64,000 nucleotides of DNA from NCBI RefSeq assembly GCF_016595235.1, contig NZ_JAENHL010000007.1, positions 62,001 through 126,000 of the forward strand. Reading direction: 5' to 3'. The notes beneath the pieces were generated by a model. It was not told where the DNA came from and ran no database searches. It saw only the letters and a list, made by a program, of their open reading frames with translations. Every line of letters begins with the position of its first letter. Positions within the stretch are counted from its first letter, which is position 1. Made by a program: the position numbers and the translations under genes. Origin of the DNA: Taklimakanibacter albus. GTDB lineage: Bacteria; Pseudomonadota; Alphaproteobacteria; Rhizobiales; Aestuariivirgaceae. Positions 1-18,907 of the stretch are shown here, piece by piece.

Positions 1-503
1 GGCGCCCCTTCGGTGGCGCCCAGGCTTTCGACGATGCGATAGCCGGTCACCCCTTTATTGGCGAAGAAGCGGCGCGTGAGATTGAGGTATTTGGTGGCGA
101 CGCGCAGGCGCCGCCCATGCCGCTTGTAGAAGCTCTCCGACACCTCATCGAGGTCGCTCATGCGCGCGACATCGAGCCAGGCTTCCGGCACCGCGACGAC
201 GACATTGGCGAAGCCGAAGCTTAAGCGCTCGAGCACATCGACGCGGTCGTCCTCGGGCCGCAGCGTCTCGCGCAGCAGATCCTCGCCGGTAACACCGAGA
301 TCGATCTTGCCTTCCTTCAGCGACGTCGCGATTTCCGACGCCGACAGGAAGGCGACGTCAACATCCTCGATGCCGCCGAGACGGCCGCGATAGAGCCGGT
401 CCGAACCGTTGCGTGTGAGCGCGAAGCCGGCCTTACCGAGGAGCGCTTCTGTCGCCTCCATCAGACGGCCCTTGGAGGGGATGCCGAGAACGAGCGCCGT
501 CAT
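1..503 (-). CDS. hisG: ATP phosphoribosyltransferase catalytic subunit HisG (partial, C-terminus outside window)
   Basis: Catalyses the first step of histidine synthesis, joining ATP and PRPP. About 167 N-terminal residues are visible, starting MTALVLGIPSKGRLME and including the GVTGEDLL segment typical of HisG. The ATG at 503 overlaps the hisZ stop by four bases (ATGA), so the two are translationally coupled. A HisZ neighbour means this should be the short form of HisG, which needs HisZ for activity. The 3' part lies beyond position 1. Confidence 0.93.
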   Translation of the reverse strand, partial: MTALVLGIPSKGRLMEATEALLGKAGFALTRNGSDRLYRGRLGGIEDVDVAFLSASEIATSLKEGKIDLGVTGEDLLRETLRPEDDRVDVLERLSFGFANVVVAVPEAWLDVARMSDLDEVSESFYKRHGRRLRVATKYLNLTRRFFANKGVTGYRIVESLGATEGA

Positions 504-1657: not shown

Positions 1658-1672
1658 CGAAGACGCTTTCCC

Positions 1673-3157
1673 TCATCTGCGCGCCAGGGCCTCGCGCACC
1701 GCCGTCACGAGGTCGGCTTCCGGGACGGAGAATTGCGCCAGCCGCGCTTCCTTGTAATCGGTGCGGTTTTCGACGCTGCCGGCGAGCTCGGCGCCCAACA
1801 TCAGATCCTTGATCTGCACTTCGCCTTTCGCCTTCTCGTCACCGCCTTGGATGACGACAAGCGGACTGCCGCGCTTATCGGCATATTTCATCTGCGCCTT
1901 CATGCCGGAGGTACCGACATACATCTCGGCACGGATGCCGGCCGCGCGCAGGCTTCCGACCATGCGCTGATAATCGCCGATACGTTCGCGATCCATGACC
2001 AGCACGACGACCGGAGCCAGAGTCTTGCCCTCTTCGGTGCGGCCCAGAAGCTTGAGCGCCGAATAGAGCCTGGACACGCCGATCGAGAAGCCGGTGGCCG
2101 GCACCTGCTGGCCGGTGAAGCGGGCCACGAGATCGTCATAACGCCCGCCGCCGCCGACCGAGCCGAAGCGCACGAGCTGACCCTCTTCATTGCGCGCTTC
2201 CATCAGCAATTCGCATTCAAAGACAGGGCCGGTGTAATAGCCGAGCCCACGCACCACTGCCGGATCGATCTTGATGCGATCCTCGCCATAACCCGCCGCC
2301 TCGAAGAGCATCGACATTTCCGCGAGCTCGGCGACGCCGGCGCGGCCACGCTCGCTCGAGCTGACGAGATCGGCGAGCCGCTTCAATGTTTCGGCCCGCG
2401 TCGACGCTCCCGCATCGACGAAGCCGGCAAAACGGTCGATGGCGGCGGCATCGAGCTCGGCGCCCTTGGTGAAATCACCCGACTCGTCCTTGCGGCCCTT
2501 GCCGAGCAGCTCGCGCACACCGGCGACACCCAAGCGGTCGAGCTTGTCGATGGCGCGCAGCACCGTCATGCGCCGCGCCTCGTTCTCCGGGCCGGCCACG
2601 CCGATCGCTTCCAGGACACCGTCGAGGATCTTGCGGTTGTTGATCTTCATCACATAGGAGCCGCGCGCGATGCCGAGCTTCTCCATCGTGTCGGCGATCA
2701 TCATGCAGACTTCCGCATCCGACGACGGCGAGGCCGAGCCCACCGTGTCGGCGTCGAACTGCATGAACTGCCGGAAACGCCCCGGTCCCGGCTTCTCATT
2801 GCGGAACACCCAGCCCTGGCGATAGCCGCGATAGGGGGTGGGCAGCGCCTGCTGGTTCTCGGCCACATAACGGGCCAGAGGCGCGGTCAGGTCATAGCGC
2901 AGCGACAGCCATTGCTCGTCATCGTCCTGGAAGGAGAACACGCCTTCATTCGGCCGGTCCTGATCGGGCAGGAACTTGCCGAGCGCGTCGGTATATTCGA
3001 TGAACGGCACTTCAAGCGGCTCGAAGCCATAGGCCTCATAGACCTCCTCGATCACCCGCATCATGCGCTTGACGCCGCGCACCTCCTCAGGCCCGATATC
3101 GCGGAACCCCTTGGCGACGCGCGCTTTCGGGCGCTGTTGTTTGGTCTTGGCGGACAT
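1673..3157 (-). CDS. hisS: Histidyl-tRNA synthetase
   Basis: Charges tRNA-His. The 494-residue protein carries class II motif 2 ([20 protein letters not shown]), the histidine A motif region ([11 protein letters not shown]) and a motif 3 region (GFSIGVSRL), followed by an anticodon-binding domain. It is longer than the roughly 420-430 residues of the common bacterial enzyme. A tRNA-His with A73 and no encoded G-1 lies in the same window (49303-49379), and a clade of alphaproteobacteria is known in which a divergent HisRS goes with exactly such a tRNA. First gene of hisS-hisZ-hisG. Confidence 0.95.
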
Positions 3158-3930: not shown

Positions 3931-4809
3931 TCATTTACGGCGCGCTGACGGCAACTGGCCAAAGGCGGCGAAAACGCTCGCTGAAAACAGCATCTCGGCC
4001 ACCCGGCGCGCGCTGACCGCATCGGCGGCAAGGCAGCGCACACCCCAGCCGGCGCTATTGGCGAGCGGGCTTACCCCCAAGACCGCCCCGGCGCCCGGAT
4101 CGAGGCCGGTCAGGACGTCCCGTTTGGGCAAGCGGGCTGGCGGTCCGAGAAACAGAAAGCTCGAAACGATGCGCCATTGACCAGTGGGCGATGCGGGGCC
4201 GGTAAGCTCGGCGCCCTGGACTCGGAAGCAGTCTCTGACCAGCAGGTGGTCCTCCGCGTCGCGGAGACTGACCTCCGAGGTGAGCTGGTCGAAAGGCTGA
4301 CCTTTCGCCTGCGGATCATGCAGAGCGAAGCTGTCGGCCAGTATAAGCACGGCGCTGGGCGCCAACCGGGCTTTCAGGACGGAAGCCACGGACGCGCCCG
4401 GAAACAGGACGAGCGGATCGGGAACCAGCGCCAGGAAAGCATCGTCCTCGAGCGTCACGTCGATGGCCTGCCGCGCCGGCTGACCATGGCAATCATGCAC
4501 GACGGTCGCCGCCTGGGTCGTGACATGGGCCGCGGCACCTGCCCCCAGATGATACCGGCAGGCGAGCGCGTCCGCCCGATAGAGGCCGCCCGAGGCCGAT
4601 TGCTGATAGACGGTCAGGAGAGACGGAATGGCGCCATCCAGGCAGAACGGCCGCGTGAGATGGAACGGATAGGAGACATGTTGGCGGCCGATCACCGTGC
4701 GCGGCCCATGGCGCATGAAATCGAGATCGAAACGCCCCTTCCGCTCCGGAGCCGAGCTGTCGGAAGCCGCTGCCGCCGGTGGCCAGGGCGATGGCCAGTG
4801 GCTGGTCAC
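3931..4809 (-). CDS. ureD: Urease accessory protein UreD
   Basis: UreD (UreH) is the scaffold that binds apo-urease and recruits UreF and UreG for nickel insertion. The 292-residue protein has the family features [14 protein letters not shown]..., [11 protein letters not shown] and [12 protein letters not shown]. The start is GTG at 4809, overlapping the ureG stop by four bases (GTGA). It is the last gene of the urt-ure locus, and its stop lies 5 bp from that of convergent hicB. Confidence 0.9.
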
Positions 4810-5438
4810 CGGAACAGCACGTCAGCCATGATGCGGTCGGCGACGGCGTCGATACCTTCCACCTTGCGGCAGTTGGTCAGCGCCATCGGGCGGCCGCGAC
4901 GCGTCGCCGCCGCTTCGGCCTCCATGCGGACGAGATCGACTCCGACATGCGGCGCGAGATCGGTCTTGTTGATGACCAGCAGATCGCATTTGAGCACACC
5001 CGGCCCGTTCTTGCGCGGAATGTCGTCGCCGCCTGCCACATCGATGACGAACATCCACCAGTCCACCAGATCGAGGGAGAAGGTCGAGGCGAGATTGTCG
5101 CCGCCGCTTTCGATGAGGATAAGCTCGACATCCGGGAAGCGCATCTCGAGCTCATCGGCGGCCGCGATATTGAGCGTCGGGTCCTCACGAATGACGGTAT
5201 GCGGACAGGCCCCCGCCTCGACCGCGGCGACGCGGGTCGGATCGATCAGGCCGGAGCGGCGGATGCGTTCGGCGTCCTCGGCGGTGACCAGGTCATTGGT
5301 GACGATGGCGAGCGAGACATTGCGGGCGGCAAAGGCCGGGATCAGACGCTCGATGAGCGCCGTCTTGCCTGAGCCGACCGGCCCGCCGATGCCGACGCGC
5401 GCCGCCCCGACACGGGCTTGAGTTTCCGCTGACATCAT
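4806..5438 (-). CDS. ureG: Urease accessory GTPase UreG
   Basis: SIMIBI-class GTPase that carries nickel and drives its insertion into urease. The P-loop GPVGSGKT sits near residue 19, the nickel-binding Cys-Pro-His is in [12 protein letters not shown], and NKTD is the guanine-specificity motif. Two ATG codons at 5438 and 5435 are equally possible. The gene begins just after the ureC stop and is coupled to ureD by a GTGA overlap. At 210 residues it matches the family. Confidence 0.95.
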
Positions 5439-5439
5439 A

Positions 5440-7152
5440 TCACCTCAACATATAGCGCTGCGCCAGCGGCAGCTCATGCGCCGGCTCGCAGGCCGCCAGC
5501 TTGCCGTCGACGAAGACATCGAAGGTCTGCGGATCGACGCGGATATCCGGGCAGAGATCATTATGCAGCATGTCCTTCTTGGACAGGCTGCGGCAGCCGC
5601 GCGATGGCAGCAGCGCCTTTTTCAGATCGAGCGTCGCGGCGAGATCGCGCTCGATCGCCGCCGGATTGACGAAACAGGCGGAGAGCGCCTGCTTGGCGCG
5701 CCCGAAGGCGCCCCATTGCGGCCTGAGCAGCAAGGGCTCGCAGGTCATGAGCGAAGCAGCGCTGTCGCCCATGGCACCCCAGGCGATGAAGCCGCCTTTG
5801 ATAACCAGCTCCGGCTTGATGCCGAAGAAGGCCGGACGCCAGATGACGATATCGGCCATCTTGCCGTCATCGAGCGACCCGATGTGCTCGGCGATGCCGA
5901 AAGTGCGCGCCGCATTGATCGTGTATTTGGCGACATAACGTTTGATGCGCTCATTGTCGCCGAAACGCGTCGCCTCCTCCGGCAATCGGCCGCGCTGCTT
6001 CTTCATCTTGTCGGCCAGTTGCCATGTCCGGCAGATGACCTCGTTGATGCGGCCCATGCCCTGGCTGTCGGAGCCCAGCATGGAAATGGCGCCGATATCA
6101 TGCAGGATATCCTCGGCGGCGATCGTCTGGGCGCGGATGCGGCTTTCGGCGAAGGCGACGTCCTCGGGGATCGCCGGATTGAGGTGATGGCACACCATCG
6201 TCATGTCGAGATGTTCGTCGAAAGTGTTGACCGTGTAGGGATTGGTCGGGTTGGTGGAGGACGGCAGGCACCAGGGGACGCCGGCCACGCGAATGATATC
6301 GGGTGCGTGGCCGCCGCCGGCCCCCTCGGTATGATACATGTGGATGGTGCGGCCCTTGATCGCCGCCAGCGTGTCCTCGACGAAGCCGCTCTCATTCAGC
6401 GTGTCCGTATGGATCTGCACTGGAAAGTCCAGGCGGTCGGCGACACTCAGGCAGGTGTCGATCGCCGCCGGCATGGTGCCCCAGTCCTCATGCAGTTTGA
6501 GGCCGAGGCAGCCCGTCTCGATCTGCTCGACAAGGGAAGCGGGCTTGTGTGAATTGCCCCGCCCGAGGAAGCCGAAATTGATCGGCCACTGCTCGGCCGC
6601 CTGCAGCATCTTGCCGACATTGAACGGACCGCCGCAATCGATTCCGACAGTGATCGGCCCGAGCGAGCCGCCGAGCATGGTGGTAATCCCCGACGCGATG
6701 GCATGCTCGCAGAGCTGGGCGCTGTCGAAATGGACATGCACGTCGATGGCACCCGCGGTGGCGATGAGGCCTTCGCAGTCGCGCACCGTGGTCGCCGCCG
6801 AGACGATGAGCCGCGGATCGACGCCATCCATCACATCGGGATTGCCAGCCTTGCCGATCCCGACGATGCGGCCGTCCTTGATGCCGATATCGCCTTTGAC
6901 GATCCCGACGACCGCATCGATGATCGTGGCATTGCAGAGGAGAAAGTCGAGCGCGCCCTCGGCGCTGGTGACGCCGGCGGTGAGTCCGGCGCCGTCGCGC
7001 AGTGTCTTGCCGCCGCCATGCAGGCATTCATCGCCATAGATCGCGAAATCCTTCTCGATAACGGCGACCAGCGACGTGTCACCGAGCCGGACGCCGTCGC
7101 CGGTGGTCGGCCCATACATCGCGGCATAGTCTCGGCGGGAAAGTGTGGCCAT
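5440..7152 (-). CDS. ureC: Urease alpha (catalytic) subunit, divergent lineage
   Basis: Hydrolyses urea to ammonia and carbamate at a dinickel centre. In 570 residues the metal ligands are present: His139 and His141, the carbamylated lysine Lys219 in [10 protein letters not shown], His248, His274, and the SDSQGMGR aspartate. The mobile-flap Cys321-His322-His323 is intact. The stretch after HVHF (residues 142-182) departs strongly from the usual IxPQQ...GGGTGP sequence, so this looks like a separate urease lineage. The subunit partner is the fused gamma-beta gene upstream. Confidence 0.94.
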
Positions 7153-7166
7153 GATTGAACTCCCTG

Positions 7167-7862
7167 TCAGGCGCCACGGAAACCGGCCGCGCGCGCCCGC
7201 TCGATTGCTGCTGATTTGGCTTTCGGATCTTCCGCCTGTCCGTCGGAAAGGTCGTTGAGGCCGGAAAGCCGCTGCTTTCCGCCGAAGCTGGTGAGGGGCA
7301 CGTCCTTCTCCTGCCCCGGCTCGAAACGCACAGCGGTGCCGGCCGCGATGTCGAGCCGCAGGCCGAAGGCCGCCGCGCGGTCGAAATCGAGCGCCTTGTT
7401 GACCTCGAAGAAATGATAGTGGGAGCCGATCTGCACCGGCCGGTCGCCGGTGTTGACGACGCGCAGCGTGACTTTGCGGCGCCCGGCATTGAGCTCGATC
7501 TCGCCCTCCTCGACGATCAGCTCGCCCGGATGGTCCGTGTCGACCTCCGAGCCGGCGGTGGGACGCAGCGGATCATGGACAGTGACGAGTTTGGTGCCGT
7601 CCCGGAAAGTGGCCTCCACCTGCAGCATCGGCAACATCGCGGCGACGCCCGGCATGACGTCCTTTTGGCTGAGGAGCTGTGAGCCGAGCGACATCAATTC
7701 GGCCACCGAGCGGCCTTCGCGCGCGCCTTCCAGGATCTCGTCGGAGATGAGCGCCACCGTCTCGGGATAGTTGAGCAGCAGCCCCTTGGCGCGGCGCTTA
7801 CGGGCAAGTTCTGCCGCGGTGTAGATGGTGAGACGTTCGAGCTCGGTCGGGGTCAGCAGCAT
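7167..7862 (-). CDS. ureAB: Fused urease gamma-beta subunit
   Basis: One 231-residue polypeptide joins the two small urease subunits. Residues 1 to about 100 are the gamma subunit ([35 protein letters not shown]). From about residue 110 comes the beta subunit ([42 protein letters not shown]). The gamma-beta fusion is known from some bacteria, while many rhizobia keep separate ureA and ureB. It precedes ureC by 14 bp. Confidence 0.95.
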
Positions 7863-7883: not shown

Positions 7884-8570
7884 TCAGTTCGAGAACAGCC
7901 GCTGCCCGGTCACGCCATGCAGGGCGACCGCGATCTCGGCAAGCGGCACGAAAGAGCGAAGGGGCTCGTCCTCACCGACCGGCATCGCTCCCGCCGCTTC
8001 GATGACGGGCAGCATGCCGGCGACATGGCGCTGCGCCTCAATTGCCCCGATGAGTCCGAGGCGAATGGCGGCGGTCGCAAGCGAGGCGGCTGCCTGGTAG
8101 CCGCTGATCGCGACCGACGTCTTCTCATCGAGTCCGAGCGATCGCCACAGCATCCCCTGCACGACGGGAAGATGGCCCAAGGCCGCGCCGTCGCGGATCA
8201 TCGCCCGATAGGCATCCGCCCACGGCGTGCCGATCCGCGCATGGGTGGTGAGAAGCGCCATGCCGTTGCGCCGTGATCCGGCGCGCAACCCTTCGGCTAA
8301 GGTCGACGCCTCGACTTCGGAATCAAGCCGCGCGATAGCGTCGAGGTCATCGCCACACCGATGCGCCCGCACCAGCGCGACGCGGTCGGCCTCCGCCCAG
8401 CGATGCCTGATCTGCGCCTCCAGAAATCCGGCGAAGCTGAAGGCGCCGAGCTTGGAGACAAGCTGTGACGCAGCCTCGAGGCCTTGTGAAAAGGCGAAGC
8501 CGCCCGATGGGAACTGGCTATCGGCATGCTGCAGGGCGAGCAGCAGTCCGCTGCTGGTCAACGGGTTCAT
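7884..8570 (-). CDS. ureF: Urease accessory protein UreF
   Basis: UreF links UreD to UreG and gates GTP-dependent nickel delivery. The 228-residue protein shows the family start LLLALQHADSQFPSGGFAFSQGLE and GHLPVVQGMLWRSLGL. The ATG at 8570 overlaps the ureE stop (ATGA), so a longer reading frame upstream was not used as the start. It lies between ureE and the fused ureAB. Confidence 0.93.
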   Translation of the reverse strand: MNPLTSSGLLLALQHADSQFPSGGFAFSQGLEAASQLVSKLGAFSFAGFLEAQIRHRWAEADRVALVRAHRCGDDLDAIARLDSEVEASTLAEGLRAGSRRNGMALLTTHARIGTPWADAYRAMIRDGAALGHLPVVQGMLWRSLGLDEKTSVAISGYQAAASLATAAIRLGLIGAIEAQRHVAGMLPVIEAAGAMPVGEDEPLRSFVPLAEIAVALHGVTGQRLFSN

Positions 8571-9019
8571 TCGGTTGTCTCGGACATGGACACATGCCCG
8601 CCTTTGATCAGCGGCTCGATCCGCGCCGCATAGTTTTTCGCCGGACCATCGAGCGAGACCAGCAGGTCGTTCCCGTCGAAACGAACCCGCCAATGCAAAT
8701 TGCCGGCGTGATAGCCGAGCTCGAGTGCCGCCCGCGATGAAGCGGGTGAGAGCCGCAACCAGCGCTGCTCCCCTGCTCTGACCACGATGGCACGGGCGTC
8801 CTCCATCATCAGCACCGCACCGTCGAAGAGCTTCTGGTCGCGCGGCAAAGCGATCGCGATCTCCTCGCCCTTTTCGGTGCGCGCCAGGAGTCGCCGCCGG
8901 TCGAGATCGCCGAGTGCGATCGTCACCACCTCGACCGCGTGCCGGTGCTCCAGCCGATGGAGCCGCTCATGCAATCCGGGATCGGTGCGCGCGCCAAGGA
9001 TGGTGTTGACCTGAAGCAT
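8567..9019 (-). CDS. ureE: Urease accessory nickel chaperone UreE
   Basis: A 150-residue nickel metallochaperone. The N-terminal peptide-binding region contains ARTEKGEEIAIALPRDQKLFDGAVL and the metal-binding domain contains ALELGYHAGNLHWRVRFDG with its conserved histidine. There is no histidine-rich tail at the C-terminus, so it should bind few nickel ions. It lies 15 bp after urtE and overlaps ureF by four bases, tying transporter and urease genes into one unit. Confidence 0.92.
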   Translation of the reverse strand: MLQVNTILGARTDPGLHERLHRLEHRHAVEVVTIALGDLDRRRLLARTEKGEEIAIALPRDQKLFDGAVLMMEDARAIVVRAGEQRWLRLSPASSRAALELGYHAGNLHWRVRFDGNDLLVSLDGPAKNYAARIEPLIKGGHVSMSETTE

Positions 9020-9034: not shown

Positions 9035-9730
9035 TCAAAGACTCATGTGTTTGCGGACGAGCTCATTGCTGAGCTCAGCTGCAGCGCCTGCAGCCGCGAC
9101 GCGCCCTTTTTCGAGAATGACGAAACGTTGCGCCGCCGTGCGGGCAAAACGGATCTTCTGCTCCACCAGGATGACCGTCAGGCCATGGTCCCGGTTGAGC
9201 GAGACGATCGCCTTTTCGATATCCGCCACCACATTGGGCTGGATGCCTTCCGTCGGCTCGTCGAGAACCAGGACACGCGGATCGGTGGCGAGCGCCCGGG
9301 CGATGGCGAGCTGCTGTTGCTGCCCGCCCGACAGGTTGGTGCCGCGCCGCGTCAGATGCTCCTTCAGGAACGGGAACAGCGTCCAGACCAGCGGCGGCAC
9401 GTCGCGGCGTCCATCCGAGCGCGCATTGCAGCCGAGCAGGATGTTCTCCAGCACATTCAGCCCCGGTACGATCTCGCGGCCTTGCGGCACATAGCCGATG
9501 CCAAATTGCGCCCGCTTGTAGGTCGGGGCCTCGCTGATATCGACGCCGTCGAGCTCGATCGAGCCGCGCGTGCGGGTGTCGATGCCGAGCAGGCTGCGCA
9601 GCAGCGTCGTCTTGCCGACGCCATTTCGCCCGAGAATGCAGAAGATCTCGCCTTTTCGCACATCGAGATCGAGATCGTGGATGATGTGGCTCGTTCCGTA
9701 ATAGGCGTTGAGTTTTCTGAGCTTAAGCAT
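9035..9730 (-). CDS. urtE: Urea ABC transporter ATP-binding protein UrtE
   Basis: A 231-residue ATPase of the LivF/UrtE type. Walker A is GRNGVGKTT near residue 34, the signature is LSGGQQQQLAIARAL, and Walker B is VLVLDEPTEGIQP. It pairs with UrtD to drive the UrtB/UrtC permease. The start codon lies inside the end of urtD (8-bp overlap). Confidence 0.93.
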   Translation of the reverse strand: MLKLRKLNAYYGTSHIIHDLDLDVRKGEIFCILGRNGVGKTTLLRSLLGIDTRTRGSIELDGVDISEAPTYKRAQFGIGYVPQGREIVPGLNVLENILLGCNARSDGRRDVPPLVWTLFPFLKEHLTRRGTNLSGGQQQQLAIARALATDPRVLVLDEPTEGIQPNVVADIEKAIVSLNRDHGLTVILVEQKIRFARTAAQRFVILEKGRVAAAGAAAELSNELVRKHMSL

Positions 9731-10487
9731 GGCTGAGCGTCGCCGATCCGAGATAGGCCTCGATCACCGCGGGATGATGCTCGATCTCCTGCGCGGTGCC
9801 TTCGGCCAGGATCGCTCCCTGGTGCAGCACGGTGATGGTCCGGCATATTGTGCGTACGAAGGCCATGTCGTGCTCGATGACCAGCACAGTGTGGCTGCCC
9901 GCAAGGTCGAGCAGCAGTTCCGCCGTCTTGTCCGTCTCGTCGGCGGTCATGCCGGCCGCCGGCTCGTCCAGAAGGATGATTTGTGGGTCCTGGCTGAGCA
10001 CCATGGCGAGCTCGAGCCACTGCAGCTGGCCATGCGACAGCTCCGAGGCCCGGTGCCGCATGACGCCGAGAAGGCCGGTCCGCGCCGCCACCGCCTCCTC
10101 CTTCTCGCTGGGCTTGCCGCTGAGCCGCGCAAAGATGTTCTCAAAAACCCGGACCTGCCGGTTGCTGGCGACCTGCAGATTCTCCAGCACCGTCATTTCC
10201 TTGAACACACTCGGCGTCTGGAATTTGCGGCCGATGCCGCTGCGCGCGATGGCGGCTTCGCCGATTCCCGTGATATTGCGGTCCCTGAGCCAGATCTCGC
10301 CGTCCGACGGCAGCACCCTTCCGCATAGGAGATCGAGAAGCGTCGACTTGCCGGCGCCATTGGCGCCGATGATCACCCGTAGCTCGCCGTCCGCGATCGA
10401 CAGGTCAACATCACGCACCACCGGAATCGAATCGAAGCGCACCGTGAGCCCGCGCGTCCGCAGAATGGGATTAGCGGCGGCACTCAT
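9723..10487 (-). CDS. urtD: Urea ABC transporter ATP-binding protein UrtD
   Basis: A 254-residue ATPase of the LivG/UrtD type. It has Walker A GANGAGKST, the signature-like LSHGQLQWLELAMVLS (SHGQ in place of SGGQ, usual for UrtD), and Walker B IILLDEPAAGMT. The start at 10487 was chosen because it overlaps the urtC stop (ATGA) and gives the family length; the open frame extends much further upstream in urtC without homology. Confidence 0.93.
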   Translation of the reverse strand: MSAAANPILRTRGLTVRFDSIPVVRDVDLSIADGELRVIIGANGAGKSTLLDLLCGRVLPSDGEIWLRDRNITGIGEAAIARSGIGRKFQTPSVFKEMTVLENLQVASNRQVRVFENIFARLSGKPSEKEEAVAARTGLLGVMRHRASELSHGQLQWLELAMVLSQDPQIILLDEPAAGMTADETDKTAELLLDLAGSHTVLVIEHDMAFVRTICRTITVLHQGAILAEGTAQEIEHHPAVIEAYLGSATLSHA

Positions 10488-11578
10488 GGATAGGCCTCCT
10501 CGCGGGCCGCATCCCTCTTCCGCCAGCGTTCGATCAGGCCTTTGCAGATACCCGCAAGGCCGTTCGGCATCACCAGGACCACGAAAATGAATAATCCCCC
10601 CAGGATGATCGGCCACACCGGCTGGAAGGCGGCGCTTTCGCTGGCGAGCGAGCCGACGAAATTCACAATCAAGGCGCCGATCGCCGCGCCAAGCAGCGAA
10701 GCCCGCCCGCCCGTCGCGGCCCAAATCACCATGGAGATGCTGAACGAGGTCGCCATCAGCGACGGCGAGGCGAATTCCGCCGTCACGGTGAACAGCATGC
10801 CGGCCAGGCCGGCGACACCCGCCGACAGGCAGAAGATGAAGAGCTTGTAGTTCTCGACGTCGTAACCGAGATAGCGTGCCCGCGCCTCGTCCTCGCGGAT
10901 CGCCTTCAGGATCTGGCCGATCCGCCCCGACAGCAGATAGCGGGCGATCAGGATCACCACGAGCAGCGTGACCGCCACGAGATAATAGACGCTCGGTCCA
11001 TAGGGATCGAATTCGAGGCCGGCGATATCGAGCAAGGCCAGATTGGCGAGACCGTTGAACCCGCCGGTCAGCGGCTGGTTGTTGATGATGAGCAGTTGGC
11101 CAATGAGCGCGAAAGCGAGGGTGATGATGCTGACATAGACGCCGGCGGTGCGGCGCTTGAACATCACGAAGCCGAGCGCCGCGGCGAGGACGATGGGCAC
11201 CACGATGGCGGCGATCATACCGACCGCCAGCGATCGGAAGGGAATCCATAGAAAGGAGCCCGGCGTCACGCAGCAGAGGTCGCGAACCGCGTCCGGCTCC
11301 ATATTGAGCAGCATGAGCTCCGGCACCGGATTGTTCTCGGGCAGTGCGAGGGTCAGCGACATCGCCAGCATATAGGCCCCGATGCCGAAGAAGAGCCCCT
11401 GCCCCAGATTGAGCACACCGGCATAGCCCCATGACATGCTGATCGCGACCGCGCAGATCGAATAGACCAGATAGATGGCGACGCGGTTGACCCAGAAGCC
11501 GTTGAGGAACAGGGGCAGCAGGAATATCAGGGCGAAGAACGCGATGTAGGCGGCGGCTGAGACGATCCGATATTTCAT
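10484..11578 (-). CDS. urtC: Urea ABC transporter permease UrtC
   Basis: A 364-residue inner-membrane permease of the LivM family with about nine to ten hydrophobic segments, among them YIAFFALIFLLPLFLNG at the N-terminus. An EAA-like loop is seen in IGQILKAIREDEARARYLGYDV. The ATG at 11578 is preferred over an in-frame TTG at 11596. It follows urtB closely and overlaps urtD by four bases. Confidence 0.92.
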   Translation of the reverse strand: MKYRIVSAAAYIAFFALIFLLPLFLNGFWVNRVAIYLVYSICAVAISMSWGYAGVLNLGQGLFFGIGAYMLAMSLTLALPENNPVPELMLLNMEPDAVRDLCCVTPGSFLWIPFRSLAVGMIAAIVVPIVLAAALGFVMFKRRTAGVYVSIITLAFALIGQLLIINNQPLTGGFNGLANLALLDIAGLEFDPYGPSVYYLVAVTLLVVILIARYLLSGRIGQILKAIREDEARARYLGYDVENYKLFIFCLSAGVAGLAGMLFTVTAEFASPSLMATSFSISMVIWAATGGRASLLGAAIGALIVNFVGSLASESAAFQPVWPIILGGLFIFVVLVMPNGLAGICKGLIERWRKRDAAREEAYP

Positions 11579-11599
11579 GTTTTGCCCATGTTCCAACCG

Positions 11600-12490
11600 T
11601 CAGCGGCTCTTGATCACGAAGAGGCCTTGCGGCCGGAAGAGGAGGATGAGGATCACGACCGCAAACAGGACGGTGCGGCCATAGACGTCGTTGAGCCAGG
11701 TCGCGACGAAGCTCTGCACCTCTCCCAATATGCCAGCGGACACGAATGTGCCGATGAGATTGCCGACACCGCCGGCGACGACCACCAGAAAGGCGTCGAC
11801 GACATAGGGCGTTCCCATGTCCGGCGAGACCGTCTTGAAACCGGAAACGAGTACGCCGGCGGCGCCGGCGAGCCCCGATCCATAAGCGAAGGCCAGCGCA
11901 TTGACGCGCTGATCATTGATGCCGCAGGCGGCCGCCATGTTGCGGGCGACGGAAACGGCGCGCAGCTGGTTGCCGAAGCGCGTCCGGTAGACGAGCCACC
12001 AGGTCACGGCCCCGAGCAGCACGGCGATGGTGAAGACGAAGGCCCGATAGGCCGGGATATTGGCCCCAAGAAAGCGGAAGGACTGCTGCAGCTCGATGGG
12101 CACCGGCACGTTCTGCAGATCGGAGCCCAGACCCTCGATCTGGATGCCGAACAGCGCCAGGCCGAAATGAATGCGAATGAGCTGCTGGAGAATGAGGGCG
12201 ATCCCCCAGGTCGCCAGCAACGTGTCAAGCAGCCTTCCATAGAGGCGGCGGACCACCGTGCGCTCGATGACGAGGCCGAAGGCGGCGGTGATGAGGAAGG
12301 CGAGAGGCAGGCACCAATAGAGGCTGAAGCCCAGGTGTTTGGTCGCCAGCACCGTGACATAGGCGCCGATCATGACCATTTCACCATGCGCCAGGTTGAT
12401 CACCTTCATCGTGCCGTAGATGATCGCCAGGCCCAGGGCGACCATGAACAGGATCGATGCGATGCTCAGCCCAATGACGAATGTTTCCAT
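11600..12490 (-). CDS. urtB: Urea ABC transporter permease UrtB
   Basis: A 296-residue permease of the LivH family. Typical segments are GLAIIYGTMKVINLAHGEMVMIGAY near the N-terminus and NQLRAVSVARNMAAACGIN in the cytoplasmic coupling loop. It forms the membrane channel with UrtC. It lacks the long N-terminal extension of some UrtB proteins. It lies 62 bp after urtA. Confidence 0.92.
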   Translation of the reverse strand: METFVIGLSIASILFMVALGLAIIYGTMKVINLAHGEMVMIGAYVTVLATKHLGFSLYWCLPLAFLITAAFGLVIERTVVRRLYGRLLDTLLATWGIALILQQLIRIHFGLALFGIQIEGLGSDLQNVPVPIELQQSFRFLGANIPAYRAFVFTIAVLLGAVTWWLVYRTRFGNQLRAVSVARNMAAACGINDQRVNALAFAYGSGLAGAAGVLVSGFKTVSPDMGTPYVVDAFLVVVAGGVGNLIGTFVSAGILGEVQSFVATWLNDVYGRTVLFAVVILILLFRPQGLFVIKSR

Positions 12491-12552
12491 GCCACCTCGC
12501 CCGAGAAGGGCCGGAGCGGCTCAGCCGCCCCGGCAAGGAGCCTGACGTTGTC

Positions 12553-13803
12553 TTACAGTGACGCGCCTTGCGTGGTGCAGATGCGCTTCTCCGCCGTTTC
12601 GCCGACGCTCGAATAAGGCAGCGGCAGGAGCGGCTCGGAATACTGATCGACGATATCGAGAAGTCCGTCGGACCGGGACTTGCCGATGCGGGGCGTCAGG
12701 TAGCTGTGGAGATTCTCTGGGTCGATGGTGACCTTGCCTTGCGGGGCATCGAAGGAAAGGCCGCCGGCATTGGCGATCACCGCCTCCGGCGCGACATCGC
12801 CGGCTTTGGCCGCGGCCATCGCCCACATGTTGATGCCGATATAGACCGCCTCCATGGCCGCATGCGTCACCGCATCGGTGCCGGCGACGGCCTTGAATGC
12901 CTCGACGAAGGTCTTGTTCTGCGGCGTGTCGACGGTTTGGAAATATGGCAGGGAAACATAGCTTCCTTGCGCATATTCCCCGCCCATCGCCTTGATCTCG
13001 ACTTCCGTCGTCGTCGAGGCGCATAGCGGCAGCTTGTCGAAGTCATAGCCCTGGTTGCGCAGCTCGCGGTAGAAGGCGACGATCGAATCACCGACCACAT
13101 TCGAGAAGATCACGTCGGCGCCGCTGGACCCGATCTTGGAGACGAGCGAGGCCCATTCGGTATGGCCGAGCGGCAGATATTCATCGCCCACCACTTCCAT
13201 GCCGATCTTCTGGCAGATAGTCTTCGATGTCTTGGCCATGCCGCGCGGGAATGCGTAGTCGGAACCGACGATGAAGAGCTTGTTCTTGCCGAGATTCTTC
13301 TTGAGCCACGGCAGCGAATTCTCGAGCTGCTGGTTGGGCACCGCGGAGCCGGCATAGAGCACGTTCTTGGAGCACTCCTCGCCCTCATACCATGTCGGCC
13401 ACACCAGGAGACCCTTGCGCCGCTCCACCACCGGCAGCACCGCCTTGCGGCTCGCCGTCGTATAGCAGCCGAAGATGACCGGCACCTGGTCCTCGATGAC
13501 GAGCTTGCGCGCTTTTTCGCTGTAGATGCGCGGTTCCGACGCCGGGTCCTCGATGATCGCCTTGAGCTGCTTGCCGAGCACGCCGCCCTTGGCGTTGATC
13601 TCGGCGATTGCCATCTGGGCGCATTGATTCATCGACTTCTCGACGATCGCCGTCGTCCCGGTCAGCGAATACATGATCCCGACCGGTATCTCCTCGGCCG
13701 CCCACGCTCTGTCGCCTAAACGCAAAATCTCCGGTGCGGCGAGCCCCGCGGCGGCGAAACCGGTGGCCTTGATGAAGGTACGCCTGCTTTGAAGTAGTTT
13801 CAT
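12553..13803 (-). CDS. urtA: Urea-binding periplasmic protein UrtA
   Basis: A 416-residue solute-binding protein of the UrtA/FmdD/AmiC family that captures urea or short-chain amides. The N-terminus has a Tat-type signal (SRRTFIK, then a hydrophobic stretch and a likely cleavage after AWAAE). Family motifs include GCYTTASRKAVLPVVER, YEGEECSKNVLYAG and FDAPQGKVTIDPEN. The GAGGAGGAA ribosome-binding site lies directly before the ATG. It is preceded by a 272-bp leader with a terminator and sits just downstream of the amiR-like gene. Confidence 0.93.
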   Translation of the reverse strand: MKLLQSRRTFIKATGFAAAGLAAPEILRLGDRAWAAEEIPVGIMYSLTGTTAIVEKSMNQCAQMAIAEINAKGGVLGKQLKAIIEDPASEPRIYSEKARKLVIEDQVPVIFGCYTTASRKAVLPVVERRKGLLVWPTWYEGEECSKNVLYAGSAVPNQQLENSLPWLKKNLGKNKLFIVGSDYAFPRGMAKTSKTICQKIGMEVVGDEYLPLGHTEWASLVSKIGSSGADVIFSNVVGDSIVAFYRELRNQGYDFDKLPLCASTTTEVEIKAMGGEYAQGSYVSLPYFQTVDTPQNKTFVEAFKAVAGTDAVTHAAMEAVYIGINMWAMAAAKAGDVAPEAVIANAGGLSFDAPQGKVTIDPENLHSYLTPRIGKSRSDGLLDIVDQYSEPLLPLPYSSVGETAEKRICTTQGASL

Positions 13804-13957
13804 TTCCTCCTCGCTTCCGCGCTTCGTGAGCGCTTATCTTTTTGAGATTTGCTTGGGTGCTGCGGGCACTACGCATCCTTCACGCAACCGATGAACGGCG
13901 GCGCAGCGCAGTAACCATCAACGGCATGCCAACGGCGCTGTCGGCATAGTCGGAAAC

Positions 13958-13994
13958 AAAAAAACCCGCCGGCTCCGATCACGGAGCTTGCGGG
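13958..13994 (-). terminator. Intrinsic terminator in the urtA leader
   Basis: On the minus strand CCCGC-AA-GCTCCG, a TGAT loop, CGGAGC-CG-GCGGG and then seven T form a strong rho-independent terminator. It ends 154 nt before the urtA start and follows the amiR-like gene, so it stops transcription before urtA unless a second structure forms. Confidence 0.88.
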
Positions 13995-14065
13995 CTTCCT
14001 AGCCTTGCGACGCAGACCGCGCTGTCTTGCGTCTCTTCGAGTTCAGCTTTTACTAAGCTTCAACT
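13990..14065 (-). promoter_or_regulatory. ANTAR-type antitermination leader (candidate)
   Basis: Read on the minus strand, three hairpins precede the terminator. At 14040-14065 AGTT/AACT and AGCTT/AAGCT enclose a five-base loop. At 14009-14033 a nine-pair stem with one bulged A closes the hexaloop AGCGCG, with A at loop position 1 and G at 4, the pattern known for ANTAR targets. At 13990-14008 GC/GC and GGCT/AGCC form a hairpin whose 3' side takes up the CCCGC of the terminator's 5' arm, so the two exclude each other. Its loop is AGGA, or TAGGAA if the top pair opens, a weaker match to the consensus. Confidence 0.65.
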
Positions 14066-14075
14066 AATTTTCATC

Positions 14076-14684
14076 TTAGGCACGACGATCTTTGAACGTC
14101 AAGAGTTCATGTGCGTTGATGATCGCCATTGCGAGATCATCCATCGGCACGCGCTTGGCCATCGCCTGCCGGCGAATGCTTTCATACGCTTCGGGCTCCG
14201 AAAGTCCCTGCGTCTCCATGAGAATGGCTTTCGCTTTCATGATGCGATTGTTGCCCGCGAGCTTGCGTTCGAGCTTGCGGATTCTCTTGCTCGCATTCTG
14301 CCGCTCGAGCCACAGCGCCCGCGCGATGGTGAGATTAGTCAGAAGGCCGAAGGGCCGGATCGGCCGCTCGATGACGGCGAGCGCGCCGCATTCCAGCACC
14401 ACTTGCAATGTGCCGGGATCCTCGAATGAAACGACGGCCAGCAAAGCGGGATCGGACGCCTGGTTCGGACGGAACAGCTTGAGGATCTTCTCACGATTTT
14501 CCTGCTCGATCGAAACCAGGATGACCGCCGCGGCCGGATTGACTTCCTCCGGCAGCGGCCATGTCGTCTCGCAGCTGCAGCCGACGCGCCGCAAGTGATC
14601 GACCAGCGCCAGCCCTTCCGAGTCGGGCGGGTGGATCACTTGAATGCGCAGTCCTTTCAGGTCGCGAAGAATGTTCATCGCCAC
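14076..14684 (-). CDS. amiR: ANTAR-domain antiterminator, AmiR-like
   Basis: A 202-residue RNA-binding regulator. The first 120 residues resemble the pseudo-receiver of AmiR, with no clear phosphoacceptor site. A helical segment rich in Arg and Lys follows (RKLERKLAGNN). The C-terminal ANTAR domain includes IMKAKAILMETQGLSEPEAY and LAMAIINAHELL. AmiR in Pseudomonas is held inactive by AmiC and, once released, prevents termination in the amidase leader. Here the AmiC-like gene is 9 bp upstream and a terminator leader before urtA is directly downstream. Confidence 0.9.
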   Translation of the reverse strand: MAMNILRDLKGLRIQVIHPPDSEGLALVDHLRRVGCSCETTWPLPEEVNPAAAVILVSIEQENREKILKLFRPNQASDPALLAVVSFEDPGTLQVVLECGALAVIERPIRPFGLLTNLTIARALWLERQNASKRIRKLERKLAGNNRIMKAKAILMETQGLSEPEAYESIRRQAMAKRVPMDDLAMAIINAHELLTFKDRRA

Positions 14685-14693
14685 GGGAAAGTC

Positions 14694-15881
14694 CTATGTC
14701 CGGCGTTTCATGCGCGGCGTTGACTCCATCCAGTCGTCGAAAGCGGAGGTGACGAAATAAGGATCGGGCTTCACCCGGGTCTCCGACTGCCAGACGATGT
14801 CGAACCGCCCCTGCGCATTGATGCGCCCGATCCGTGACCACAGCTCGGTGTGGTTGTTGTCGGGATCGACCCTTATGCGTCCCTGGGGCGCATCGAATTC
14901 GAGCCCGCGCAAATGCCGCGCCACCACATCCGGCTCATCGTCTCCCGCCATCTCCAAGGCCTTGGCGTAAAGATGGATCTGGCAATAGGCGGCTTCAGCG
15001 CTGGCGGTGACGGGTGCCGCATCGCCGAACCGGCGCTTGAAGGCCGAGACGAAACGGCGCGCTTCGGGCGTGTCCAAAGTCTCGAAGAACGAAGCGGCGG
15101 TCAGGTGGCCGACCGCGATTTCGGGCGCCATCTCGGCCAGCTCGGCCTCGGTCGTCGACAGGCTAGCGATCGGCATGGTGCGGGCATCGAAGCCCGCCTC
15201 CTTGTAGGCTTCATAGAGCAGCACCGCGCCGGTGCCGACGACATTGGAGACGACGACATCGGGCTTCAGCTTGCGGATCTGCCGGATGACCGGCTCGAAA
15301 TCCCGGCGCGTCGCCTCGACCGGAACATAGATCTCATCCGCGATGCTCCCCTTCCCCGACATCACGAGATCGGTCACGACCCGGTTATATTCGTAAGGGA
15401 ACACATAATTGGAGCCGACGAGCAGGAAACGCTTGCCGAATGTCTCCATCAGATAACGCGCCAGCTGCACGGCATTCTGATTGGACGAAGACCCGGCATA
15501 GAAACAGCGGGGCGAATATTCGAACCCTTCGTAGAAGGTCGGATAGAACAACAGGCCGCGATAGGCCTCGATTTCCGGAAGAACGGCTTTGCGCGCCGTC
15601 GACATGTAGCAGCCGACGACACTTCTGATCTTGTCCTCGGTGAGCAGGCGGACGGCGAGCTCGCGATATTTCTGCGGCGAGCATTCCGGGTCGTAGAATG
15701 TCGGGCGGATCGGCCGGCCGAGCACGCCGCCGCGCGCATTGATCTCCTCGACCGCCAGCAAGGCGGCATTGGCCTCGGCGATCTCGGCCGCCGCCGTCAC
15801 GCCGCTGCGTGAAAACAATATGCCGAGCCGCCAGTCACCGTTCGTCACGATCTTAGTCACCTGCCAAGAGACATCACTCAA
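14694..15881 (-). CDS. amiC: AmiC-like amide/urea sensor
   Basis: A 395-residue cytoplasmic relative of UrtA. It has no signal peptide: the N-terminus MSDVSWQVTKIVTNGDWRLG leads straight into the fold (LGILFSRSGVTA). Family motifs are VVGCYMSTARKAVLPEIE, YEGFEYSPRCFYAG, VVSNVVGTGAVLLYEAY and FDAPQGRIRVDPDNNH. AmiC binds short amides and releases AmiR. The gene order amiC-amiR-leader-urtA suggests that here the signal is urea or a related amide, which is inference. Confidence 0.9.
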   Translation of the reverse strand: MSDVSWQVTKIVTNGDWRLGILFSRSGVTAAAEIAEANAALLAVEEINARGGVLGRPIRPTFYDPECSPQKYRELAVRLLTEDKIRSVVGCYMSTARKAVLPEIEAYRGLLFYPTFYEGFEYSPRCFYAGSSSNQNAVQLARYLMETFGKRFLLVGSNYVFPYEYNRVVTDLVMSGKGSIADEIYVPVEATRRDFEPVIRQIRKLKPDVVVSNVVGTGAVLLYEAYKEAGFDARTMPIASLSTTEAELAEMAPEIAVGHLTAASFFETLDTPEARRFVSAFKRRFGDAAPVTASAEAAYCQIHLYAKALEMAGDDEPDVVARHLRGLEFDAPQGRIRVDPDNNHTELWSRIGRINAQGRFDIVWQSETRVKPDPYFVTSAFDDWMESTPRMKRRT

Positions 15882-16099
15882 CGATAGCGCCCGTCAGCAG
15901 CGTCTGCCGGATCAAGATCTGAACGGACGGGAAATGGAGAAACGCCACTGTTTCTCGGGGTCCCGTCAAACTATCCCGTTGGAATTGAAAACGCAACGTT
16001 GCCCGCCGAACGTGCGGTCACCGGCCTGTCATTAACGAAACTTAAGGTCCGCTCCAGCCGTCCTTCGGCGGCGGCATCGGAACAGCCTTGGGAGCCTTT
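15882..16099. promoter_or_regulatory. Divergent intergenic region between amiC and pstS-like gene
   Basis: This 218-bp stretch must hold the promoters for the amiC-ure unit (minus) and the pstS-like gene (plus). I looked for a sigma54 (NtrC-type) promoter; the nearest candidate, around 16000-16015, has the wrong spacing between the GG and GC elements. No clear Pho box was seen. Confidence 0.4.
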
Positions 16100-17149
16100 A
16101 TGAAGTCCGCCATGCTCGCTTTTCTAGCCGCCCTCTTCTACCTCGTCTCGGCCTTGCCGGCTCCCGCCGAACCCATCCATGGCGCGGGCTCCACCTTCGC
16201 CTATCCGGTGATCGCCAAATGGTCGGAAAGCTATCTGACCGATCGGGCCGGCGGCACCGACATCACCTTCATGGGCTCCGGCATCGACTATGAGCCGGTC
16301 GGCTCGCTGGCCGGCATCCTGCGCCTGACCCAGCCGGAGATGGATTTCGCCGCCAGCGACGCGCCGCTGGCCCCGGAAGACCTCGACAAATTCGGCTTCG
16401 TCCAGTTCCCGCTCGTCGTCGGCGGCATCGTTCCGGTGGTCAATCTCGACAATGTCGCGCCGGGCGGTCTTCAGCTGTCAGGCGAGGTGTTGGCCAATAT
16501 CTATCTGGGGAAGATCCAGAACTGGTCCGACCCTGCCATTCTCGCTCTCAATGACGGACTCAAGCTGCCCGATCTCAAGATCACCGTCATCCACCGCGCC
16601 GACGGCTCGGGCTCGACCTTCAACTGGACGAGCTTCCTCTCCGCCGCGAGCCCTGAGTGGAAGACCAAATATGGCGCCGACACGCTGATCACTTGGCCGC
16701 TCGGCACCAGCGTCGAGAGAAGCTCAGGTGTCGTCAGCGCCGTCAAGGCGACGAAGGGCGCTATCGGTTATATCGAATACGGCCAGGTGGTCCGCGCCGA
16801 GCTCACTTTCGCCACGGTGAAGAACCGCGCCGGCAAGTTCGTGCGGCCGGCGCCTGAAAGCTTCGCCATCGCCGCCGCCAAGGCGCCCTGGTCGCCCGCC
16901 AACGGCTTCCATCTGTCGCTCGTCGACAGCGCCGAGGCCGATGCCTGGCCGATCACGGCCGTGACCTACATCCTGATGCGCCGCGATCCCGATTCCACCT
17001 CGCGTGCGCGCCAGGCGCTCTGGTTCTTCAATCACGCTTTGACTGAAAGAGCGGCCGATGCCGAGGCGCTCTTCTATGTGCCGCTGCCCGGCTCTCTGGT
17101 CGAGCAGGTGAAGGCCTATTGGGCACGCGAGTTGAATTTCGGAAGTTGA
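16100..17149 (+). CDS. pstS: PstS-like phosphate-binding protein
   Basis: A 349-residue periplasmic protein with a signal peptide (hydrophobic to about residue 22, cut after PAPAEP). Phosphate-site motifs are GAGSTFAYPVIAKW, GSGIDYEP, ASDAPL and HRADGSGSTFNWTSFL. The ATG at 16100 has GGAG 5 bp upstream and is preferred to an in-frame TTG at 16088. The usual pstCAB and phoU genes are absent; a Na/Pi cotransporter follows 24 bp downstream, so it may serve that transporter or a Pst permease elsewhere. Confidence 0.88.
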   Translation: MKSAMLAFLAALFYLVSALPAPAEPIHGAGSTFAYPVIAKWSESYLTDRAGGTDITFMGSGIDYEPVGSLAGILRLTQPEMDFAASDAPLAPEDLDKFGFVQFPLVVGGIVPVVNLDNVAPGGLQLSGEVLANIYLGKIQNWSDPAILALNDGLKLPDLKITVIHRADGSGSTFNWTSFLSAASPEWKTKYGADTLITWPLGTSVERSSGVVSAVKATKGAIGYIEYGQVVRAELTFATVKNRAGKFVRPAPESFAIAAAKAPWSPANGFHLSLVDSAEADAWPITAVTYILMRRDPDSTSRARQALWFFNHALTERAADAEALFYVPLPGSLVEQVKAYWARELNFGS

Positions 17150-17173
17150 ATCAACGAGAAAGAAACGGCGAAC

Positions 17174-18907
17174 ATGGAAGCGGATATCTTCAAGGACATC
17201 ATCGTGCCGGTCATCGGCGGCCTGGGCATCTTCATGCTCGGCCTCGAATTCATGGCCAACGGCATCCAGGCCCTTTCCGTCAACCGCATGCGTGAATGGC
17301 TGGCGAGGATCGCCGGCACGCCCGCCAAGGGCGTCATCGCCGGCACGTTGATCACCGGCGTCATCCAATCCTCGACCGCCATGACGGTGATGGTCGTCGG
17401 TCTCGTCAATGCCGGCGTCATCGCGCTCCGACCCGCCATCAGCGTCATCATGGGCGCCAATATCGGCACCACGCTCGGCAACGGCCTCATCGCTTTGCCG
17501 CTCGGCCCCCTGGGGCTCCTGCTCGGTGGCATCTTCGCCCTGGTGTATGTCTTCGCCAAAAGCGAGAAGATCCGCAACATCGCGCTCGCCTGCATGGGTT
17601 TCGCCCTCATCTTCTACGGCCTGAACCTGATGACCGGGGGCTTGCGTCCCTTGCGCGGCATGCCGGAAGTGATGTCGATCATTTCAGGCCTGCATGCCGA
17701 AAGTTTTGTCGGCCTCGTCGTCTGCATCCTCATCGCCGCCCTCATCACAGCCCTCATCCACTCCTCCTCGGCCACCATCGGTATCGTGATGGGTCTCGGC
17801 GCGGCCGGCGTGCTCGACTGGCAGACGGCGGTCGCCTTCTCGCTCGGCGCCGATCGCGGCACCACCATCACCTCGTGGATGGCCTCGCTCAACCTGTCGA
17901 AGAACGCCAAACGCGCGGCTTACGCCCATATGTCGTTCAACTTCATCGGCGTGGCAGTGATGATCATATTGTTCTTCCCGGCCATCGAGATCCTGAAATT
18001 CGCCATGGGCTGGTTCGGCGGCGATCCGGGCGTGCCGGTCATGGTCGGCGGCAAGGAGACCTTCCCGCTGGTGCCGGTCGCCGTCGGTCTGTTCTCGACC
18101 GCCTTCAATGTCTTCAACACCGTGCTGCTCTTCCCCTTTGTCGGCGTCTTCGAGCAGGTCCTCTCGCGCATCGGTCGTACCGCGGCGGAGGACATCGAGG
18201 ACTATTCGGTGCCGAAATACCTGAAGCGCGAATTGACCAGCGACTTCACCAATTCGGTCAATGCCGTGCAGCAGGAGACTTTGCGCCATCTCAATGCCGG
18301 CGCCCTCTTCCTCGACATCGCGCGCGGCGTGAAGACGGCGCCGAGCGATCCCGGCGAGCACTATGTCGCGACCGACATATTGAGCCGCGATATCCGCTCC
18401 TTCTCGGCTGCCCTGTTCAAGGACAGCATGCCCTATGACCAACAGGATCTGGTGGGAAGCCTCATCGAGGAAGCGGATTTTTCGGCGAGCCTCGCCGAGA
18501 CGCTGCATCAGGTGGCGCGCCGGGTGAAGCGCGAGAAGTTCACCGCCGACGCCGAGAAGGTGGTGACCGCCGCCTTGACCCGGCTGGAGTTCCGCCTGCG
18601 CGAGATCCTGCCCGATTTCGGCGTGCCCAATCCCGCCGTGCCGACCGGCCATGTGAAGCTCAACTCCGTCGAGGAGCTGCGCGAAAAGGCCCTGCTGCTC
18701 GGTCCGCAAGTGTCTTCGGGCGAGCGCGGCGCCATCCTGGCGCTGCTCGGCAGTATCGAGCGCGCCGAGCTGCTGATCCGCCGCATCGACGCGGAGCGTC
18801 AGTCGGTGAACCGCGCCGAGGTCATCGCCCGCGCCAAAGCCACAATGACCAAGCCCGACCGTCGTCCCGATATCGACGGCAGCTTCAACCCCGCCCCGGC
18901 GGAGTAA
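17174..18907 (+). CDS. Na+/phosphate cotransporter with PhoU-like tail
   Basis: A 577-residue membrane protein of the NptA/YjbB (Na_Pi_cotrans) family. The two inverted repeat halves carry GVIQSSTAMTVMVVGLVNAG near residue 60 and ALIHSSSATIGIVMGLGAAG near residue 195, the QSS and SSSA motifs that line the phosphate and sodium sites. From about residue 350 a soluble helical region resembles PhoU and is likely regulatory. It is probably cotranscribed with the pstS-like gene. Confidence 0.88.
   Translation: MEADIFKDIIVPVIGGLGIFMLGLEFMANGIQALSVNRMREWLARIAGTPAKGVIAGTLITGVIQSSTAMTVMVVGLVNAGVIALRPAISVIMGANIGTTLGNGLIALPLGPLGLLLGGIFALVYVFAKSEKIRNIALACMGFALIFYGLNLMTGGLRPLRGMPEVMSIISGLHAESFVGLVVCILIAALITALIHSSSATIGIVMGLGAAGVLDWQTAVAFSLGADRGTTITSWMASLNLSKNAKRAAYAHMSFNFIGVAVMIILFFPAIEILKFAMGWFGGDPGVPVMVGGKETFPLVPVAVGLFSTAFNVFNTVLLFPFVGVFEQVLSRIGRTAAEDIEDYSVPKYLKRELTSDFTNSVNAVQQETLRHLNAGALFLDIARGVKTAPSDPGEHYVATDILSRDIRSFSAALFKDSMPYDQQDLVGSLIEEADFSASLAETLHQVARRVKREKFTADAEKVVTAALTRLEFRLREILPDFGVPNPAVPTGHVKLNSVEELREKALLLGPQVSSGERGAILALLGSIERAELLIRRIDAERQSVNRAEVIARAKATMTKPDRRPDIDGSFNPAPAE

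Follow-up and report, generated by a model that had tools for sequence, protein, structure and literature searches.

A putative AmiC/AmiR-type antitermination circuit in front of urea transporter and urease genes in Taklimakanibacter albus

Genes for an AmiC-like sensor and an AmiR-like antiterminator, together with a leader RNA, stand in front of urt-like transporter and urease genes in a window of 64,000 nucleotides from Taklimakanibacter albus (the whole stretch of DNA analysed here), and it is quite likely that AmiC/AmiR-type antitermination controls this urtABCDE-ure operon, a grading that applies to the mechanism and not to the ligand. Antitermination is supported because of the kinship of both proteins with AmiC and AmiR, the gene order, the leader motif, its covariation and a conserved promoter-like site. 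Such a circuit had been proposed in the earlier note on this DNA, and the anatomy of the locus, covariation in the RNA and conservation now support the proposal. Comparison of sequences gives good support to the view that the AmiC/AmiR ANTAR parts are of an already known kind, whereas a urt-ure target, for which we found no report, and extra RNA elements are added here.

In the proposed circuit, the cytoplasmic AmiC-like protein would hold the AmiR-like protein without ligand, and a promoter in the 3'-terminal part of amiR would give a short leader RNA that stops at position 13958, at the terminator. When ligand is present, by homology to AmiC/AmiR and EutV, AmiR would be freed from AmiC and would bind the hexaloop of a first hairpin (P1) and then that of a second (P2). 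P2 and the 5' arm of the terminator overlap and cannot form together, so polymerase would, by the same homology, read into the transporter and urease genes.

Sensor, regulator and target genes

The features of the window are as follows.

3931..4809, minus strand: ureD
4806..5438, minus strand: ureG (profile search)
5440..7152, minus strand: ureC (profile search)
7167..7862, minus strand: ureAB, fused gamma/beta urease subunit (profile search)
7884..8693, minus strand: ureF, long ORF (profile search)
8567..9019, minus strand: ureE (profile search)
9035..9730, minus strand: urtE ATPase (308.5 bits, cut-off 285.8)
9723..10487, minus strand: urtD ATPase (305.9 bits, cut-off 304.1)
10484..11596 (ORF bounds), minus strand: urtC permease (332.9 bits, cut-off 296.2)
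11600..12490, minus strand: urtB permease (322.5 bits, cut-off 250.3)
12553..13803, minus strand: urtA-like periplasmic binding protein with a non-canonical pocket (profile search, pocket residues)
13925..13948, minus strand: P3, TATGCCGAC[AGCGCC]GTTGGCATG, the third hairpin with an ANTAR-type hexaloop; it lies downstream of the terminator and its stem has 9 bp
13958..13995, minus strand: intrinsic terminator with seven T (fold, covariance model)
13993..14004, minus strand: P2 hexaloop GGC[TAGGAA]GCC, overlapping the 5' arm of the terminator
14009..14033, minus strand: P1 hairpin, hexaloop AGCGCG with A1 and G4 (pattern, fold, alignment)
14073..14102, minus strand: sigma-70-like promoter TTGACG-N18-TAAGAT in the 3' end of amiR (motif scan, conservation)
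14076..14684, minus strand: amiR-like antiterminator (AmiR_N and ANTAR domains)
14694..15848, minus strand: amiC-like cytoplasmic sensor
15926..15967, minus strand: hairpin before amiC, hexaloop GAGAAAC[AGTGGC]GTTTCTC (15956-15937), outer stem GACGGG/CCCGTC

The product of the amiC-like gene carries PF13433/PF13458 domains in a profile search, and its best solved relative is AmiC of P. aeruginosa (1pea, E 9.6e-99). The earlier note had recognised this gene, and the gene itself stood, while its start did not: the TTG at 15881 is probably too early and the start is probably GTG 15848, because relatives share that start (VTNGDW / MANGDW). From this GTG, no hydrophobic or twin-arginine stretch was seen by eye at the N-terminus, in contrast to the UrtA-like protein, which starts with MKLLQSRRTFIK. 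The sensor and the UrtA of the window are homologous (37% identity), so that the earlier description of one homologue without signal peptide in the cytoplasm and one in the periplasm agrees with the domains, the solved relative and the N-termini. The expected ANTAR gene does follow after 9 bp; its product matches AmiR_N (E 2.4e-33) and ANTAR (E 7.3e-17) in a profile search and has AmiR (1qo0_D) as best solved relative. Thus, an AmiC homologue without signal peptide, as judged by eye, adjoins an AmiR_N-ANTAR protein.

The order on the minus strand is amiC-amiR-leader-urtABCDE-ureE-F-AB-C-G-D, comprising ureAB, ureC and accessory genes of urease. UrtB, C, D and E all score above their NCBIfam equivalog cut-offs. 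Among hydrolases, only urease was recognised in this cluster; an amidase was not. The listed start of urtC is TTG and the true start may lie six codons in, at ATG; that of ureF is probably inside the long ORF. A UrtC-UrtD fusion at 9723-11432 was rejected, its first part being out of frame (UrtC 10484-11596, UrtD start 10487). Beyond ureD, two tandem histidyl-tRNA-synthetase-like genes occupy 500-3157, the second of which we take to be possibly a HisZ-type paralogue.

Leader RNA and promoter

The leader between the amiR-like and urtA-like genes spans 14075-13804 on the minus strand (272 nt). The earlier note had described a leader of this length with a strong terminator before urtA, which was borne out: the region 13951-14076 folds at -49.7 kcal/mol (z -3.52, 0/200 shuffles as low), with the terminator dominating. 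A simple terminator scan did not list the terminator at 13995-13958, probably owing to the internal loop in its stem, and Rfam at gathering threshold reported only two tRNAs in the window. P1 of the window is AGAC[AGCGCG]GTCT inside a longer bulged stem, and the 3' arm of P2 is the first part of the terminator 5' arm. P2 is the weaker of these elements in RNAfold, where without the 3' arm of the terminator it folds as a tetraloop, GGCU[AGGA]AGCC, instead.

We compared this leader with those of 80 named loci, the best-ranking among 117 found. A pattern of P2 plus terminator that demanded no loop base was present in 65 of 81 loci (80 named plus the window), and loop position 4 of P2 was G in 65/65, with row L090 re-registered by hand. 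On the other hand, loop position 1 of P2 varied among these 65 leaders (T 31, A 20, G 14; U1 in the window). Once the 13 leaders of the Rhizobium group were set aside, a C[RNNGNN]G loop stood 12-15 nt before P2 in 52/52 of the remaining P2/terminator leaders (51 distinct) versus 6.4% of dinucleotide shuffles, with A in 38 and G in 14 at loop position 1 (A1 in the window). The weak P1 rule was also satisfied by 12/13 Rhizobium-type leaders, without a clear long P1 stem. P1 of the window clade requires a bulge, and the bulged register pairs in 85/90 cells of 10 window-type rows.

In an alignment of 35 of the 51 distinct leaders, the covariation score was 0.400 versus 0.170 (sd 0.014) in shuffles, with 0/500 as high, a figure that is no probability since these are kin sequences. 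Covariation was best in register (slid partners at most 0.236), compensatory changes were seen in P1 and in the terminator stem, and G4 of P1 was present in 35/35, having been required when the P1 rows were picked. A covariance model holding P1, the terminator stem and the U tract, trained on the window and 34 of the 80 named loci, scored the window at 63.6 bits (E 4.7e-15 over 1.68 Mb; the window is among the 35 training sequences). It found the leader directly after amiR in 77/80 named loci, plus the window, and missed it in L096, L099 and L146. In L067 and L099, ureE directly follows amiR and the leader is missing; L080 has no model match, and a terminator with a U tract was not seen there by eye. 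Among 30 loci of more distant AmiR genes, 20 had a leader match at E < 0.1, with some places counted more than once. A match on the reverse strand at 13920-14000 (18.1 bits), without the full T run, was rejected as terminator symmetry.

On these comparative grounds, we regard the leader as a genuine ANTAR-type target. The constant G4 with variable A1 agrees with the EutV-RNA structure, in which G4 makes the only base-specific contact (PMC8934654); earlier ANTAR work kept both A1 and G4 (PMC3369931). The same structure paper holds a single hexaloop to be enough for ANTAR binding, which would suit hairpins that affect translation or RNA stability and not termination, and by eye P3 and the hairpin before amiC of the window have no terminator of their own. 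However, the model that includes terminator stem and U tract matches after amiR in nearly all named loci, and GGC and GCC of P2 are invariant in the 35 aligned leaders, so that we consider such a role in place of termination most improbable.

Sequence comparison shows the promoter-like site at the amiR 3' end to be conserved. It is the only sigma-70-like site that a scan found in 12000-18000 (starting at 14102), which means little alone because shuffles give 1.4 such sites on average. However, the Leu codon of amiR at the -35 position is TTG in 74/81 loci versus 219/1904 other Leu codons in these genes, and TTGnnn-N16-18-T[AT]nnnT fits 67/81 loci. Genes commonly end in a terminator, and this one might merely close the amiCR transcript, leaving urt-ure under a separate promoter, e.g. 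of the NtrC/sigma-54 type; upstream of urease genes, predicted sigma-54 promoters are known mainly from alpha- and betaproteobacteria (PMC12316311). The earlier note had seen the circuit as acting in place of or on top of NtrC control and had named a separate urtA promoter downstream of the terminator, carrying all expression, as speaking against it, but neither a sigma-70-like nor a sigma-54-like site (the latter with up to 2 mismatches) was found in 13804-13957, between the terminator and urtA. Nor did the same sigma-54 search find a site in the leader or before amiC. Separate transcription also fits poorly with a conserved, covarying P1 and terminator and with a conserved promoter-like site upstream of the terminator, and we judge it highly unlikely.

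Related cassettes and further hairpins

Within the order, AmiR-like matches reaching E 1e-20 were obtained in 38/397 genomes. We sorted the 80 named loci by same-strand downstream matches, up to 10 kb, with UrtB as the marker of the transporter. Urease without amiE follows amiR in 19/80 (the available DNA ends early in four of them, L083, L084, L141 and L142, and L093 has amiE on the opposite strand ~9 kb on), amiE with urease in 26/80 and amiE without urease seen in 15/80, so that amiE lies within the cassette in 41/80; a nitrilase-type enzyme is found in 15/80 and none of these was seen in 5/80. The earlier note had suggested a comparison of synteny, and the window-type order amiC-amiR-urt-ure indeed recurs in Mesorhizobium, Aminobacter, Labrys and a Hyphomicrobium MAG. 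In a quick tree of AmiC, at least three changes, in either direction, are needed to account for the loci with urease but no amiE. Because of these 19 relatives and at least three changes, the joining of AmiC/AmiR to urease without amiE is, on the sequences compared, not special to the T. albus genome. In a Rhizobium/Agrobacterium version of the cassette, L145 15770-17521 encodes a 583-aa protein with two tandem nitrilase-type stretches.

The same T. albus genome has two further AmiC-AmiR-transporter-hydrolase cassettes. One (L023 4604-16123) has genes for a urt-like transporter, AmiE, CbbQ, a VWA protein and a MIP channel, its aliphatic amidase scoring 719.6 bits (cut-off 427). The other (L022 5009-12515) combines a related ABC transporter with an enzyme of the nitrilase family, and its leader scores 21.7 bits when searched directly with the RNA model. 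A second urease cluster (L024, C8) has an adjoining LysR-like gene, seen by eye. Direct searches of L023 and L024 with the RNA model gave no match, and a search of the whole genome, lossy in that 150/4724 first-look candidates were scored, gave no other target at E < 0.1 and did not list the L022 leader either.

P3-type hairpins were found in 45/78 loci versus 3.1% of dinucleotide shuffles, and a looser count gave 48/78 versus 6.5% of mononucleotide shuffles. The picking rule required G4, R1, a C-G closing pair and four pairs, which partly forces the inner pairs and hence the covariation seen in 28/37 distinct aligned sequences. By pattern, P3 is absent in 33/78 loci, including all 21 of Bradyrhizobium/Rhodopseudomonas as well as L090-L092, L141 and L159 of the urease-without-amiE loci.

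The region 15920-15970 before amiC also folds stably (z -3.52), and a hairpin with AGTGGC or AGTGCC is present there in seven close relatives (Mesorhizobium ephedrae and 6 Aminobacter loci). With at least six pairs, it occurs in 10/80 rows versus 6.8% in shuffles, so that it stands out as a clade trait only, 8/10 rows being the window and close kin; two of the full set of 80 rows (L102 and L113) are anchored on the wrong gene. It is possibly an autoregulatory AmiR site. Full leader copies stand before amiC in the relatives L076, L094, L095 and L097 (E 1.3e-6 to 9.7e-5). Copies also stand before cbbQ-like genes at L065 233-315 (E 4.8e-6) and L139 15074-15156 (0.0044), with weaker ones at L135 14834-14909 (0.0085) and L138 15382-15457 (0.038, from the match score alone), and these cbbQ-linked copies are likely a second target in trans. 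Together, the copies before amiC and cbbQ suggest autoregulation and small regulons. A weak leader-model match (20.9 bits) was also seen at L101 139-199, far from amiR.

A fuller scheme can be sketched, tentatively and at less than even odds: a cytoplasmic sensor of the AmiC type would respond to urea and control its uptake and urease through antitermination, P1 and P2 would decide termination, and P3, present in read-through RNA only, and the hairpin before amiC would be additional AmiR sites, holding or titrating AmiR as feedback.

Known systems, ligand and meaning

The closest known system is the amidase operon of P. aeruginosa with its homologous sensor and ANTAR protein, whose leader terminator has two hexaloops (PMC3369931). 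The window differs in that its targets are a urt-like transporter and urease with no amidase, its leader comes directly after amiR and not before amiE (PMC3369936), and its P2 loop starts with U where the known loops start with A. A search of the phylum with P. aeruginosa AmiR returned no close Pseudomonas (best 33-36% identity), and the amiE leader is known here by description. EutV/EutW and NasR likewise have a two-hexaloop antiterminator overlapping a terminator, with G4 in the loop (PMC8934654), but the sensor of the window is a homologue of a binding protein and not a kinase or NIT domain. Among titles, beginnings of abstracts and top-ranked full-text matches, with subscription papers mostly outside, we found no report joining AmiC/AmiR or ANTAR control to urease. 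The nearest case found in this way is the amiC-amiR-ABC transporter-amiE operon of a Klebsiella plasmid, in which a sensor pair of this kind accompanies an ABC transporter and a hydrolase; by its description it is set apart by AmiE in place of urease (PMC13209695). The amide/urea transporter FmdDEF of Methylophilus, compared by description, is linked to formamidase (PMC10781810).

With regard to the ligand, characterised UrtA binds urea via S122, Q144, Y190 and N246 and needs W120 (PMC10392092). The transporter of the window resembles UrtABCDE in UrtB to UrtE, but its UrtA lies below the TIGR03407 cut-off (407.7 versus 492.75 bits) and has Y, W and V in place of W120, Q144 and N246: its pocket is Y120, T122, W141, W144 and V246 (Prochlorococcus numbering), and that of AmiC is Y120, S122, F144 and V246. 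Apart from two reference structures, W120 or N246 occurs in no aligned row, and Q144 in four Bradyrhizobium AmiCs. The UrtA signature T122/W141/W144/D189/F192 is present in 14/14 (the window and all 13 named window-type loci), while UrtAs linked to amiE carry S/Y/Y/N/Y at positions 122/141/144/189/192, as do L141 and L142 among the urease-without-amiE loci; UrtA of the amiE cassette in the same genome has S/Y/L/N/Y. UrtAs linked to nitrilase have H120 and H144 in 15/15 and their AmiCs H120 in 14/15, so that sensor and transporter pockets shift together in this group. These shifts fit cassette-specific ligands, and urea in the window cassette. AmiC position 274 was tried as a marker of urease-only clusters; it held in 18 loci plus the window, a set in which row L068_AmiC is really UrtA, and broke in a larger set, and none of the AmiC positions examined cleanly separates urease-only from amiE clusters.

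Urea is the likeliest ligand, given that the window cluster has no recognised hydrolase besides urease; we favour it somewhat on the sequences, with formamide, acetamide or a related small amide as the other candidates. The earlier note had urea or a short amide as the switch, and urea is here a probable signal only, in view of the absent canonical residues and the amiE-bearing relatives. For the same two reasons a short amide may serve: it is conceivable, though we think it rather doubtful, that the same circuit has formamide, acetamide or an amide together with urea as inducer and imported substrate, urease being carried along since urea and amides co-occur or since the transporter is broad. 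The pockets of UrtA and AmiC, like AmiC and unlike canonical UrtA, and the low UrtA score point in this direction. On the other hand, no amidase is recognised in the window cluster, the same genome has its separate AmiC-AmiR-urt-like-AmiE cassette, and the UrtA signature of the window clade is unlike the amiE-linked ones.

Finally, control of urease is usually described in terms of DNA-binding and nitrogen-stress controls. If urea is the ligand, the circuit would add to these controls a response of urease to urea at the level of RNA. Moreover, the presence of P3 beyond the terminator raises the question of a role of the ANTAR protein after the termination decision. The set of cassettes with urease, with AmiE with or without urease, or with nitrilase-type enzymes, together with their pocket shifts, may be a natural series on how one fold changes its ligand.
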